Positions 11,015-16,887 of a DNA stretch of 64,000 nucleotides are shown in pieces (position 1 is the first letter of the stretch; each line of letters begins with the position of its first letter). Made by a program: the position numbers and the translations under genes. The notes beneath the pieces are model-generated. The model saw only the letters and a program-made list of their open reading frames with translations. It did no database searches and was not told where the DNA came from. This DNA is from Euzebya sp. (GTDB lineage Bacteria > Actinomycetota > Nitriliruptoria > Euzebyales > Euzebyaceae): positions 1-64,000 of the forward strand of contig NZ_CAXQBR010000104.1 in NCBI RefSeq assembly GCF_964222135.1, read 5' to 3'.

Positions 11015-14000
11015 CTACCGACCCGCCGAACCGGGCGAGGAGTGCCACAGCTTGCGTCCCGGCCCGTGGGCGTCACCTCCGGCGGGGTCGTGGCTTGGGC
11101 AGCCCGGGAGGGTGCAGCGGCGGACGTGGCGGTGATCGGGGTGACGGGGGTCGTTCGGCGACAGCCGCGTGCTGTCCTGGGGGTCGAGCCCGCCGTTGCG
11201 TCCCGCGGGGTCCGCCCACGTCGTGCCGTTCGGGGTGAACCGGGTCGGCCGCCCGACCGGCTCGGCCGGGCCGGCACCGCCGAAGGGGATCGTGCGGCGC
11301 ATCTGCGGGTGCTCGCCCGGCCGGTGGGCGAAGGTCAGCCCGGAGCGGCCTGCGGCACCCCGGATCCCCTCCGACGGTGCGCCGTCGGAGAAGTCGCGGG
11401 CCGCCTGGTCGGTGGGGCGGCCCCCCTCCCCCAGCGCCTCGTCGAGCCACCCCTCCCGCCAGGCCGTCATCAGCCGCCGCAGGTCCCAGGCGCGGGAGGC
11501 GGTGATCGACACGCCCCGCCGGCCGCTGCGGTGCACCCGGCCCTCGGCGACCAGCAGCCAGGTGTGGAACACCGTCCAGGCGCAGGCGTCGTGGACGGAC
11601 TCGAAGAACGTCGCGTCACCGACCCCGGTCGCGTCGTCGAGGGACAGGAAGATCACCCGCTGCCCGGACTTCACCGGCGGGGTCTGGGTGGCGACCTTCA
11701 CCCCGCCGATGCGGACCAGCTGGCCCTCGCGGCAGTCGAGCAGGTCGGCGGCGCGTGTCACCCCCAGGCGGTCCAGCAGGGAGTCGTAGAAGGAGATCAC
11801 GTGCCGGCTCGCGTCCAGGCCGACGACCTCGAGCTCGGCCCGGACCCGCTCGGCGGGCCGGTACTCGGGCAGGCCGGCGGCCTCCTCGGGCTCGAGCAGG
11901 CCCAGCTGCTCGGGCTGGTCGGGCCCGCGGACCTTGTGGCGGGTCAACCCGGACCACCGCTCGGCCACCTCGAGCAGGAGGTCCCGGCGGGTCCGGCCCC
12001 TCCCCTCCCCCACCGCCCCCACCCCGACCCCGACCCCGCCGATGCCGTCGAGGGCGCCGGCGTGGGTGAGGGACTCGGCGACCGGCTGTGACAACCGTGC
12101 GCGCAGGCGCAGGTCGGCGACGGAGGTGAAGGGCCGGCCGAGCAGCAGCGAGTCGATCATGTCGTCGTCGATGCGCTCGACGTCCTGGAGGCCCAGGCGG
12201 ATCGCGTAGCGCCACCCCGGGACGTCGGCCGTGCCCTTGTCGAAGCCCGCCGGCGGGAGCGGCGTGCCGTCTGCTGCCCGCCGCCAGCCCGACGGCAGGC
12301 GCGCCGCGGGATCCCCCACCCCGAGGAGGGCGCTGGGATCAGCGATCCCGAGGAGGGCGTACGCCTCGTCGGCGGGGACCACCTCGACGGTGTAGTCGCG
12401 CGCGGAGGCGTTGACGTCCAACGGCAGGATCGCGACGCCGAACTGGCGGGCGTCCTCGAGGATCAGCCGTCGCGGGTACATGCCGGGGTCGTGGGTCAGC
12501 ACGCCGGCCATGAACTCGGGCAGGTAGTGGGCCTTCAGCCACGCCGAGCGGTACGTCGGCACGCTGAACGCCGCCGCGTGGGCCTTGCAGAACCCGAAGG
12601 AGGCGAACTGGCTGAGGGCATGCCACAGCCAGTCGGCCACCTCCACCGGCAGCCCGCGCTCGGCGGCGCCGGACGTGATCCATCGCTCGAGCTCGCCGAC
12701 CTGGGTGGGGTCGCCGAGGCGGCGGCGGACCAGGTCGGCCTCGGCCAGGTCGCAGCCGGTGACCGCCGCCACCGCTCGCATGACCTGCTCGTGGTAGACG
12801 ATCACGCCGTAGGTCTCGCCCAGTGCGCGCTCGAGGATCGGGTGGGGGACGCCCGTCGCCTCCTGGCGATGGCGGCGGCGCAGGAACGGCTTGATCATGT
12901 CGCCCTTCACCGGGCCGGGGCGGAACAGCGAGATGTCGACGACCAGGTCGTCGAGGTGCTCGGGCTGGAACTTGCCGATCAGCTCGCGCTGGCCGGGCGA
13001 CTCGATCTGGAACATCCCGAGGGTGCGGGTGGACTGGATCAGCTCGTAGGTGTCGGGGTCGGCCCAGCCGACCGCGTCGAAGTCGACATCGACCCCGCGG
13101 GTGCGACGCACCTGCTCGGTGCAGTGGGCCATCGAGCTGAGCATCCGCACGCCGAGCACGTCGAGCTTGCACAGCCCGAGGGCCTCGACGTCGTCCTTGT
13201 CGTACTGGGCCATGGCGAACCCGGCCGCGGAGCGCTCCATCGGGGCGATGTCGCGGAGGGTCCGGTCGGCCAGCAGGATCCCGCAGGGGTGCAGGGCGAT
13301 GTGGCGGGGGAAGCCGTCCAGGCGCTCGACGACGTCCAACAGCAGGCTGTACTGACTGCGCGACCCGTCGCGACGGTGGGCCGCCTCCAGGTTCAGCCCC
13401 TCGAGCTCGGGCAGGTGGGCGAGGGCGGGACGGACGTCGCCGGCACCGACGTGCGGGAAGGACTTGGCGATGTAGTCGACCTCGGCGGCCGGCATCCCCA
13501 TCGCCTTGCCGACCTCGCGGATCGCCATGCGGGCCTTGAACGTCTCGACCATCGCGACGCAGGCGACCCGGTCCTCGCCGTAGGTCCCCAGGAGGTCGCG
13601 GTAGATGTCCTCGCGGCGGGCGGACTCGACGTCGATGTCGATGTCGGGCAGCTCATCGCGGTAGGGGTTCATGAACCGCTCGAACGCGAGGTCGTGGGCG
13701 ACCGGGTCGACGTCGGAGATCCGCAGCGCGTAGGTGACGATCGACCCGGCCGCCGACCCGCGGCAGGCCGCCAGGATCCCCTTGTCGCGGATCCGCTGGA
13801 CGATCTCGGCGACGGTCAGGAAGTACGGGGCCAGGCCCAGGGTGCGGACCATGTCGAGCTCGCGGTCGAGCAGGTGGGTGTGGGTCGCCTCGACGCGCGC
13901 GAACCGCTCGTGGAGCCCGTGCTCGCAGCGCCGGCGCAGCTCGGCCAGGGCCCAGGCCGGATCCGACCCCTCCTCCCGGCCGGGTCCGGTGACGAAGTCG

Positions 14001-14944
14001 GGGACCCGCAGCCGGCCGAGGCCGATGTCGACACCGCACCGCTCGGCCACCCACATCGTGTTCACCAGCGCGTCGGGCCGCTCGGCGAACACCCGCGCCA
14101 TGGCCGCGGCGTCCTTGAAGTGGCCCTCGGCGTTCCTGCGGGTGCGGTGGTGGCGGGCGAGGGGGACCTGCTGGCGGACCGCGTCCATCACGTCGGCGAT
14201 CCTGGCGTCGGCCGGCGTCAGGTACCGGGCGGCCTGGTGGGCGACCGCGCGGACGCCCAGGTCGTCGGCCAGCGCGAAGGTCCGCCGGGCGACGTCGTCG
14301 TCGCCCGGCGCGAGGTGGTGGGTGACGCCGATCAGCAGCCGCTCGGGCCCGAGCAGGTGCAGCCACCGGCGGGTCTCGGCGCGGGCGGCGTCGACCCGCC
14401 CGGCGGCCAGCAGGCGACCGACGGGGGACTCGGCGCCGAGCAGCGCGAAGACGCCGGGGTCAGCCCCGCCGAGGCGGTGCACCACCTGCGCCCAGCGCAG
14501 GTGGGGGTCGGACCGCTCGGACTCGAGGTGGTGGTCGGTGATCGTGCGGGCGAGGGTCGCGAACCCCCGGTCGTCCGCGGCGATCAGCGTGACGCGGGCG
14601 GCGTCGTCCTCGAGCCAGGCCTGCCCGGACCCCGGTCCCATGACCCGCCCGATGCCGCTGCGGGAGGCGCGGGTGATGCCCCACCCCTCACGCACGCGTC
14701 CGCGGTCGTCGGCCTCGGGGAACAGCGCCAGGTCGGCCCCGTAGATCGGGCGCACCCCCGCCTGCCCGCAGGCCTGGGCGAACCGGACCGCGCCGTACAA
14801 CCCCCCGCGGTCGGCGATGCCCACCGCCTCCATGCCGGCCCGCGCCGCGGCCTCGGCCAGCTCGCGCGGCCGGATCACCCCGTCGCGCAGCGAGTAGCAG
14901 GTCCGGGTGGCGAGGTGGGTGACGGCGGGTGCGGCGCTCGGCAT
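11015..14944 (-). CDS. dnaE2: Error-prone DNA polymerase III alpha subunit DnaE2
   Basis: C-family polymerase of the ImuA-ImuB-DnaE2 mutasome type, used for damage-induced mutagenesis. The ATG at 14944 gives 1309 aa starting directly before the PHP domain (HLATRTCYSLRDG); GGAAGG lies 11 nt upstream. The catalytic Asp pair is in PDIDIDVES near residue 430, and helix-hairpin-helix and OB domains follow. It is longer than the roughly 1050-1200 aa usual for DnaE2 because the last about 100 residues form a proline/glycine-rich tail with no recognised domain. A LexA-type site lies 55 nt upstream. imuA and imuB are not in the window. Confidence 0.93.
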   Translation of the reverse strand: MPSAAPAVTHLATRTCYSLRDGVIRPRELAEAAARAGMEAVGIADRGGLYGAVRFAQACGQAGVRPIYGADLALFPEADDRGRVREGWGITRASRSGIGRVMGPGSGQAWLEDDAARVTLIAADDRGFATLARTITDHHLESERSDPHLRWAQVVHRLGGADPGVFALLGAESPVGRLLAAGRVDAARAETRRWLHLLGPERLLIGVTHHLAPGDDDVARRTFALADDLGVRAVAHQAARYLTPADARIADVMDAVRQQVPLARHHRTRRNAEGHFKDAAAMARVFAERPDALVNTMWVAERCGVDIGLGRLRVPDFVTGPGREEGSDPAWALAELRRRCEHGLHERFARVEATHTHLLDRELDMVRTLGLAPYFLTVAEIVQRIRDKGILAACRGSAAGSIVTYALRISDVDPVAHDLAFERFMNPYRDELPDIDIDVESARREDIYRDLLGTYGEDRVACVAMVETFKARMAIREVGKAMGMPAAEVDYIAKSFPHVGAGDVRPALAHLPELEGLNLEAAHRRDGSRSQYSLLLDVVERLDGFPRHIALHPCGILLADRTLRDIAPMERSAAGFAMAQYDKDDVEALGLCKLDVLGVRMLSSMAHCTEQVRRTRGVDVDFDAVGWADPDTYELIQSTRTLGMFQIESPGQRELIGKFQPEHLDDLVVDISLFRPGPVKGDMIKPFLRRRHRQEATGVPHPILERALGETYGVIVYHEQVMRAVAAVTGCDLAEADLVRRRLGDPTQVGELERWITSGAAERGLPVEVADWLWHALSQFASFGFCKAHAAAFSVPTYRSAWLKAHYLPEFMAGVLTHDPGMYPRRLILEDARQFGVAILPLDVNASARDYTVEVVPADEAYALLGIADPSALLGVGDPAARLPSGWRRAADGTPLPPAGFDKGTADVPGWRYAIRLGLQDVERIDDDMIDSLLLGRPFTSVADLRLRARLSQPVAESLTHAGALDGIGGVGVGVGAVGEGRGRTRRDLLLEVAERWSGLTRHKVRGPDQPEQLGLLEPEEAAGLPEYRPAERVRAELEVVGLDASRHVISFYDSLLDRLGVTRAADLLDCREGQLVRIGGVKVATQTPPVKSGQRVIFLSLDDATGVGDATFFESVHDACAWTVFHTWLLVAEGRVHRSGRRGVSITASRAWDLRRLMTAWREGWLDEALGEGGRPTDQAARDFSDGAPSEGIRGAAGRSGLTFAHRPGEHPQMRRTIPFGGAGPAEPVGRPTRFTPNGTTWADPAGRNGGLDPQDSTRLSPNDPRHPDHRHVRRCTLPGCPSHDPAGGDAHGPGRKLWHSSPGSAGR

Positions 14945-14998: not shown

Positions 14999-15012
14999 CG
15001 AACATGTGTTCG
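14999..15012. promoter_or_regulatory. LexA (SOS) box of dnaE2
   Basis: CGAACATGTGTTCG has both half-sites of the actinobacterial LexA consensus CGAAC-N4-GTTCG without mismatch. It sits 55-68 nt before the dnaE2 ATG, within the 119-nt gap after the diguanylate-cyclase gene. It predicts DNA-damage induction of dnaE2, as known for this family. Confidence 0.88.
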
Positions 15013-15063: not shown

Positions 15064-16887
15064 TCAGGTGCCGACATCGCCCACGGCCGTCAGCCCCGGG
15101 CGGGCGGACGCCACCTCGACCCGGTTCCGCCCGCCGGCCTTGGCCCGGTACAGCGCCGCGTCGGCCGCCGCGACGACGTCGCCGGGGTCGCCGCCCGGCG
15201 CGAGCTGCGCGACGCCGAGCGAGGCCGTCACGCCGCCGGCCGCGGGATGGGTCAGGTCGGCCTCGGCGATCGCGGCGCAGAGCCGGTCGGCGAGGACCGT
15301 CGCGGCCGCCAGGTCGGAGTCGCGCGCCAGCACGGCCAGCTCCTCGCCGCCGTAGCGGTACGCGTCGTCGGTCGTCCGGGCTTCGCGGACCAGCACCTCG
15401 GCCACCGCTCGCAGCACCGCGTCGCCGTGCTGGTGGCCTCACTCGTCGTTCAGCCGCTTGAAGTGGTCGAGGTCGATCAGGACCAGCGACACGTCCCGGC
15501 CGCCGCGGGCGCTGAGGGAGGCCTCGACCGCGAGGTCCGCGTCGAACCGCCGGCGGTTGTACAGGCCGGTCAGGCCGTCCCGCTCCGCGGCATCCGCCGT
15601 CCGGGAGGCCACCCGCGCGGCTCGCAGGGCGGCACCGGCCTGGATCGCGAGCAGCTCGAGCGGCGCGGTGCGAGCCTCGAGGCGCGTCCGATCGCCGCGC
15701 ACCTCGAGGACCCCGACGACCGACGCGCCCACGACCATGGGGACGGCCATCACGTGGTGGTCCCGGCCGGCGCGCAGCTGCGTCCGCGCATCCCGTGCGG
15801 CGCCGCCCACGGCCCCCTCCCCAAGGGCGACCGACGCGAGCACGTCCGCGGTGGTGCTGTGCACCGGGTGGAGCAGGTCCTCGTCGCCGAGCAGCCACAC
15901 CGTCGCCGTCGCGGCCTCGACCATCTCCGCAGCCGCGACGGCGACCCGCCGCGAGACCTCCGCCGGGGAGTGGCTGCCCGCGACGTCCCGCGCGACGTCG
16001 ACCACGGTGGCTGACATCAGCGCCTGCTCCTCGGCGTCGGCGCGGGCCCTGCCCAGGGCGGCGTGGTCGGCCTCGAGCGCGTCGGCCATCGCCGCCAGCC
16101 CCTCCGACAGCTCCGCGAGCTCGGCCGGCGCCCCCGACTGCGGCCGGGCGGTGAGGTCGCCGGTCCGCATCCGCGCCAAGGTGTCGAGCAGGTCGGTCAC
16201 CGGCTGCTCGATCCCGCGCACCAGCCGCGAGCGGGCGTGGCGGGCGCTGACCAGCAGGGCGAGGGACAGGGCGGCCACGACGGACACGCCCACCTGGATC
16301 GCCACGCGCTCCTCGCGCATGGCTGCATCCCGCCGCGCGACGACCATCCCGGTCGCCACGTCGTTGGCGGCGCGGTACTCCTCGAACAGGGCCATGCCCT
16401 GGAGGAGCACCCGCCGGAGCTGCGGGCGGCCGATGTCCTCGACCTCGAGGTCGGTGACGACGTCGGCCCACCCGGTCACCCACCGCTCCTGGGCCATCAG
16501 GACGTCGACGACGGCGACGCCGAGGCCACCGGTGACCAGCCGGTTGCGGGCGACGTCGGCCGTCAGCTCGGCCCGCTGCACCACCCCGTCGCGGTACGGC
16601 GCCAAGAACGCGTCGTCACCGGTGGCCAGCCACCCCCGGATGCCGGTCTCCTGGTCCAGCATCGCCTCGTGGGAGCGGCGGAGGTCCCGGGTGAGGTCGG
16701 TGATGTCGCGCAGACGGGGGTGGATCGCGCCGAGGACCAGGGTCGCCACGACCGCCACCGCCAGGCACAGGACGCCGGCCGCGGCGATGAGGGTGCGCTG
16801 CTGCCGACGGGCGTCGGCGATCAGGCTGGGCCGCGCGGCCGCGTCCGTCGCGAGCTCCGTCCTGCGGCGGGTCCGGGACGTGGGCAC
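15064..16887 (-). pseudogene. CHASE3-HAMP-GAF-GGDEF protein interrupted by an in-frame TGA
   Basis: Would encode a 606-aa diguanylate cyclase, but codon TGA at 15439-15441 splits the GGDEF domain. From GTG 16887 the first part (482 aa) has a transmembrane helix, a CHASE3 sensor (DQETGIRGWLATGDDAFLAPY region), a second helix, HAMP and GAF, and stops just after FKRLNDE. The same frame continues with GHQHGDAVLRAV and a perfect GGEEL signature to 15064, so no other lesion is seen. The family normally has one residue (often Arg, CGA) where the TGA stands, so a single C-to-T change explains it. It may be a true nonsense mutation, a sequencing error or a readthrough site. Confidence 0.8.

Follow-up and report, generated by a model that had tools for sequence, protein, structure and literature searches.

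A lone in-frame TGA within the GGDEF domain of a Euzebya sensor-cyclase gene: probably a recent nonsense allele

Premature stops in GGDEF genes have been described in Shigella flexneri 2457T, in which dgcE, dgcM, dgcN and dgcQ are interrupted and four intact GGDEF genes are kept (PMC11327459). In that study c-di-GMP was measured and was raised by dgcE, dgcQ and dgcN and lowered by dgcM. Plasmid-borne dgcN with its premature stop, expressed in E. coli, yielded a band at the size of the full-length protein and raised c-di-GMP; the discussion of the same paper claims the same for dgcQ, while its results assign the second band to an adjacent Met (PMC11327459). The RxxD motif is named there as the I-site (PMC11327459). 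An in-frame UGA can also specify selenocysteine (Sec). The bacterial SECIS element (bSECIS) is described as having a loop of 3-9 nt, a stem of 4-16 bp, a G in loop positions 1-2 and a distance of 16-37 nt from the UGA (PMC13188914). Cys homologues exist for nearly all known selenoproteins, and Sec usually lies in a redox site (PMC13188914, PMC12013277).

The window, by which we mean the whole stretch of 64,000 nucleotides that was analysed, comes from a draft genome of Euzebya sp. (5.06 Mb, 111 contigs, 97% complete). The first-pass annotation had placed a TGA inside an otherwise intact GGDEF domain, between FKRLNDE and GHQHGD, with the frame kept downstream, and this description holds. The TGA lies on the minus strand at the position it gave (Table 1) and becomes X483 in a frame of 607 residues, with FKRLNDE on one side and GHQHGD on the other. 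The frame has this one stop and is otherwise unbroken, and the 124 codons 3' of the TGA contain zero further stops. Pfam matches both parts of the domain, and when the TGA is read as X they join into one GGDEF domain (profile 2-161, 130.7 bits). As the gene stands, no single translated product has a complete GGDEF domain, the stop falling between profile positions 48 and 51. The HAMP score, just over its cut-off in the table, is 24.9 bits against the cut-off of 25 when X replaces the stop in the read-through frame. Third-position GC is 0.967 before the stop and 0.96 after it, as would be seen in a frame on which coding constraint had acted until recently. Seven codons separate the stop from the GTG at 15417. 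What was earlier called a perfect GGEEL motif is in fact a departure from the canonical GG[DE]EF signature; it is located after the stop, the relatives have F, and the form is the sole GGEEL among the 35 own-genome motifs scored and occurs in 2 of 85 distant GGDEFs.

Table 1. Features of the interrupted GGDEF gene, in window coordinates
Feature	Position	Strand	Remark
In-frame TGA, codon 483 of 607-codon frame	15439-15441	minus	
Whole frame, GTG start 16887, final TGA 15064-15066, single internal TGA	15064-16887	minus	
CHASE3 match, residues 67-112	16552-16689	minus	34.1 bits vs cut-off 28
HAMP match, residues 228-273	16069-16206	minus	25.8 bits vs cut-off 25
GAF-like stretch, residues 306-421	15625-15972	minus	GAF_2 23.7 bits, under Pfam cut-off 28.6
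GGDEF first part, 5' of stop, profile 2-48 of 161	15442-15585	minus	Pfam, 1.4e-10
GGDEF remainder, 3' of stop, profile 51-161	15121-15438	minus	Pfam, 2.4e-20
RTTD (RxxD motif), five residues ahead of signature	15367-15378	minus	I-site by label
GGEEL signature	15337-15351	minus	GGEEF in six intact class relatives
Possible restart frame, GTG at 15417, 117 aa	15064-15417	minus	About the first third of the domain missing

Six relatives from the same class (L113-L118) match the sensor part over nearly its full length at 29-39% identity. Each is one open frame of 624-702 codons that includes the GGDEF motif, and at the stop column they have Y, Y, F, F, L and H, with TGA in none. Columns that are invariant in the six are kept in the interrupted gene at 17 of 20 positions before the stop (residues 435-482) and at 28 of 33 after it (residues 484-595), and at 35 of 48 in the sensor part; the F of the signature is one of the invariant columns lost. 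There is no sign in these columns of faster decay 3' of the stop. Conserved columns kept equally well on both sides indicate that the lesion is young or not real. In a leave-one-out count over the seven genes, the interrupted gene keeps the smallest share of invariant columns both before and after the stop, and this may be read as evolutionary distance; by pairwise identity, L117 is equally far out after the stop. The sensor part has no match in three other genomes of the genus and one other of the family, with up to 26 candidates scored per genome, and the gene thus appears to be patchily held. A wider search of 396 genomes of the phylum, with up to four candidates scored in each, gave no match better than that in G039.

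The origin of the TGA can be considered against other GGDEF domains. The sample comprises 151 GGDEFs with a sense codon at the stop column, 85 distant and 66 near. From the genome itself, 51 matches gave 40 fetched sequences, of which 35 fitted the motif. Seventeen loci gave no column row: L128, L129, L135, L136 and L142 repeat GGDEFs already counted, and in the others the motif was not fitted or the locus is not a GGDEF locus; a chance window match (Ala) was excluded by the signature filter. L087, a locus with a stop flagged inside it, has Ala at the column. The near GGDEFs have L (22), H (17), Y (7), F (5), A (4), R (3), S (2) and six singles, and the distant ones Y (30), H (23), F (10), L (7), W (6), A (3), C (3) and one each of Q, R and K. 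A single C-to-T change from CGA, as first proposed, would be enough arithmetically, but CGA is present at the column in 0 of the 151, as is TGA, and an Arg (CGA) predecessor is poorly supported by this comparison. In three window genes CGA is used at 2.9 per 1000 codons vs 15.9 for TGG. Codons one substitution away from TGA occur among the 85 distant GGDEFs (TGG 6, TGC 3, TTA 1) and in none of the 66 near ones; W is the residue in DgcB (6tts), the solved relative with the best score. If the TGA arose in a single step, Trp or Cys would be a likelier source than Arg, yet no near GGDEF is one step away. Judging from these columns, a single-step origin would require a residue that is unusual at this position (Trp or Cys, 9 of 85 distant GGDEFs), and otherwise more than one change would have been needed.

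Among the 51 Pfam GGDEF matches in the genome, a stop lies inside one, which is this gene. This uniqueness and the third-position GC on both sides make the TGA more than a chance stop. At C78:7800-8291 of the same genome, a TAG is flagged outside the Pfam GGDEF match, and the match itself is stop-free. In two control families, the ABC matches had a stop inside in 1 of 120 cases (a TAG; 150 of 212 candidates were scored), and the 54 HATPase matches had none. Separately, at C79:16889-17217 two overlapping frames share an HATPase_c domain (profile 1-50 in one and 46-110 in the other), as a frameshift would leave it. A change of genetic code that makes UGA a sense codon throughout was considered and rejected: 50 of 51 GGDEF, 119 of 120 ABC and 54 of 54 HATPase matches are without a stop, and the ABC exception is TAG.

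Lone stops were also surveyed by a codon-usage scan of 861,109 bases, or 17% of the genome, of which 81,109 (the window and contig C12) had been taken because a lesion was already known there. The scan returned 15 candidates, or 22 with a relaxed filter. Three of them each lie within one gene, namely the GGDEF TGA, a TAG at C12:16303 and a TAG at C3:44291. The first TAG (C12:16303-16305, minus; L256) is alone in an ABC-transporter ATPase whose best solved relatives are CmpD and nitrate transporters. The second (C3:44291-44293, minus; L219:4291-4293) is the single stop in a malic enzyme gene that is otherwise open, and two solved homologues have E there; of the three, it alone comes from the 780 kb that had been taken without a lesion being known. 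The remaining 12 candidates (19 when relaxed) were judged by eye, mostly as neighbouring genes with a start just past the stop; one of the relaxed 19, C67:117316, has eight stops in 400 codons and another frame that is open. A TGA in a formate dehydrogenase gene, described below, would have failed the first filter (0.10 vs 0.15 just past the stop) and would probably have passed the relaxed one, so the first filter misses cases. Isolated nonsense substitutions are therefore present in this genome at a low rate, as TAG as well as TGA. The lone TAG lesions in the malic enzyme and ABC ATPase genes argue for a process that is not UGA-specific, and ordinary mutation or base error fits such low-rate lesions better than a UGA-specific programme.

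Because this genome carries Sec machinery, it would be too simple to call every in-frame TGA in it a stop. A tRNA-Sec with anticodon UCA (C65:119779-119870, L194; 70.7 bits, gathering threshold 47), SelB (C65:43057-44892, L215; 303.5 bits, cut-off 242.25) and a formate dehydrogenase with an in-frame TGA (C73:22760-24118, L212) were all found. The formate dehydrogenase match (NF041513, 1888 bits vs a cut-off of 1400) spans the TGA; 19 nt past this codon comes a GUC loop, carried by a stem of 7 bp. The organism is thus very probably a Sec decoder that reads UGA as Sec in at least the formate dehydrogenase gene. Nothing ties this ability to the GGDEF TGA. Searches for related literature found none on Euzebya with selenocysteine, and no Sec-containing diguanylate cyclase appears by title among the literature matches listed.

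That the GGDEF TGA specifies Sec is highly improbable. A Sec-containing diguanylate cyclase would be consistent with the machinery just described, with the stable stem-loop right after the TGA, where the next 47 nt fold well (-23.3 kcal/mol for the 50-mer), and with the Cys that 3 of the 85 distant GGDEFs have at the column, in one case in the same FKRLNDE context. The hairpin, however, has a shuffle z-score of just -1.18, with 29 of 200 shuffles as good, and 7 of the 66 sense paralogues have a fold that is as good or better. A loose SECIS test is passed by 44 of the 66 sense paralogues and by 53% of 2047 codons (three window genes), and the published loop, stem and spacing limits by 56 of 66 and by 76% of 2028 in-frame codons. 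In a genome of such high GC content a SECIS-like hairpin has almost no value as evidence, the same test being passed by most sense codons. At the GGDEF TGA those limits are satisfied by weak stems of 4-5 bp and failed by the strongest hairpin (stem CAGCAC/GTGCTG), whose loop lies 12 nt (or 15 nt) after the UGA vs the published 16-37. A stem of at least 7 bp with a G[GU] loop is present at the formate dehydrogenase site and after 6.3% of the 2028 codons, and the GGDEF TGA fails it. An Rfam scan of the site gave no SECIS match; its single sub-threshold match lies on the opposite strand (AS1726, 20.9 bits vs 50). Cys is at the column in 0 of 66 near GGDEFs, and the column is not known to be a redox site. 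No second TGA-containing GGDEF homologue was found either, TGA being absent at the column from the 151 GGDEFs and the six class relatives. If true, the reading would place Sec inside the catalytic domain, beside the conserved ND..GH motif, and would link selenium to c-di-GMP signalling, with c-di-GMP output tied to selenium supply, an outcome that we hold to be most improbable. Ordinary UGA readthrough, or a restart downstream that gives some functional cyclase, is very unlikely. The dgcN and dgcQ observations in Shigella speak for it, as does the GTG that follows the TGA at a short distance, but none of the 43 tRNA matches (RF00005) has a stop-reading anticodon. Suppressor tRNAs were rejected on the ARAGORN anticodons of all 43, and of the tRNA genes found only tRNA-Sec can read a stop. 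A restart product would also lose roughly a third of the domain, and with it the segment in which the first metal-binding Asp lies.

Two ordinary accounts are left. Of the three options first offered for the TGA, a fresh nonsense mutation and a base error both fit, while a readthrough codon has no positive support at the site, the only stop-reading anticodon being that of tRNA-Sec and the hairpin being the same as after sense codons. A base error or minority variant in the draft consensus, with an intact gene in the cell, is unlikely, though it is the strongest rival. The assembly is fragmented into its many contigs, the gene is undamaged apart from the TGA, and two other conserved genes are each interrupted by a single in-frame stop, one of the two within 780 kb of unselected sequence, isolated substitutions of this type being the form that errors would take; the split HATPase domain on C79 suggests another lesion. 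Against this, one clear case per 780 kb is in our judgement, with this genome alone scanned, an unremarkable rate for real pseudogenes, and the GGEEL departure, which lies in the same domain, is a hint that this copy has really diverged. No literature on stop-codon errors in metagenome-assembled genomes was found. The reading that we consider probable is a recent nonsense allele of a redundant cyclase-type gene, with the TGA base itself correct. The six open relatives provide intact homologues, and the gene differs by a single disabling change, as in a nonsense allele or recent pseudogene. It has a stop in an otherwise open frame, is unique in this among the GGDEF matches and is similarly conserved on both sides; we infer a correct base, an inactive protein, a recent event and a dispensable gene.

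Under the nonsense-allele reading, a sensor-cyclase gene (CHASE3-HAMP-GAF-like-GGDEF) would be dispensable in this lineage and would recently have gained a nonsense substitution within its GGDEF domain. Translation would end after 482 residues, past the DLDHFKRLNDE segment. The truncated product would retain the sensor and GGDEF positions 2-48 of 161 and would be without the GGEEL signature and RxxD; since the active site would be incomplete, no c-di-GMP is expected from it. If translation restarted at GTG 15417, the product would be missing the opposite side of the active site. With fifty further GGDEF matches in the genome, the loss could be masked. The inactivity of the truncated product is not certain, as Shigella genes with premature stops can raise c-di-GMP, though in those genes the stop lies ahead of the domain. 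The gene would then be another damaged copy of a redundant signalling gene, and its chief value would lie in the caution it offers for annotation.

The lesion may have little consequence for the neighbouring gene. A DnaE-type polymerase gene (11015-14944, minus) lies downstream of the GGDEF gene on the same strand. Its best NCBIfam match, 'error-prone DNA polymerase', scores 683 bits, below the cut-off of 939, and the polc superfamily is over its cut-off. A perfect CGAACATGTGTTCG site (CGAAC-N4-GTTCG) is present at 14999-15012, in the gap just upstream of the polymerase gene; it is the one such site in the window, where the chance mean is 0.05 and 5 of 100 shuffles have one. We take CGAAC-N4-GTTCG to be the LexA box of actinobacteria, and by these features the polymerase gene looks like an SOS-controlled DnaE2. 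If the site is a LexA box, transcription of the polymerase gene would start from a promoter of its own, and the GGDEF lesion need not affect it. The polymerase gene is absent from the 1.5-kb flanks of the six class relatives.

Each of the known systems shares part of this arrangement. Like the formate dehydrogenase gene of the same genome, the GGDEF gene is otherwise open around an in-frame TGA in an organism that has tRNA-Sec and SelB. In contrast to bacterial selenoprotein genes, it has no near Cys homologues, and its strongest hairpin is too near the UGA and no stronger than hairpins after sense codons. The class relatives L113-L118, putative CHASE3-HAMP-GAF-GGDEF-like proteins, are similar to it in length and align with it end to end. 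All six have RxxD five residues before the signature and an R[YF]GGEE context, as here; they differ in being single open frames with a sense codon at the column and GGEEF, whereas this gene has the stop and GGEEL. The Shigella genes, as presented in PMC11327459, still encode GG[DE]EF downstream of the stop, with RxxD as well in dgcE, dgcM and dgcQ; here too a signature, in the GGEEL form, and RxxD are encoded past the stop. Their stops, however, precede the GGDEF domain, and a frame that starts near the stop encodes an intact domain, whereas in Euzebya the stop splits the domain itself (PMC11327459).
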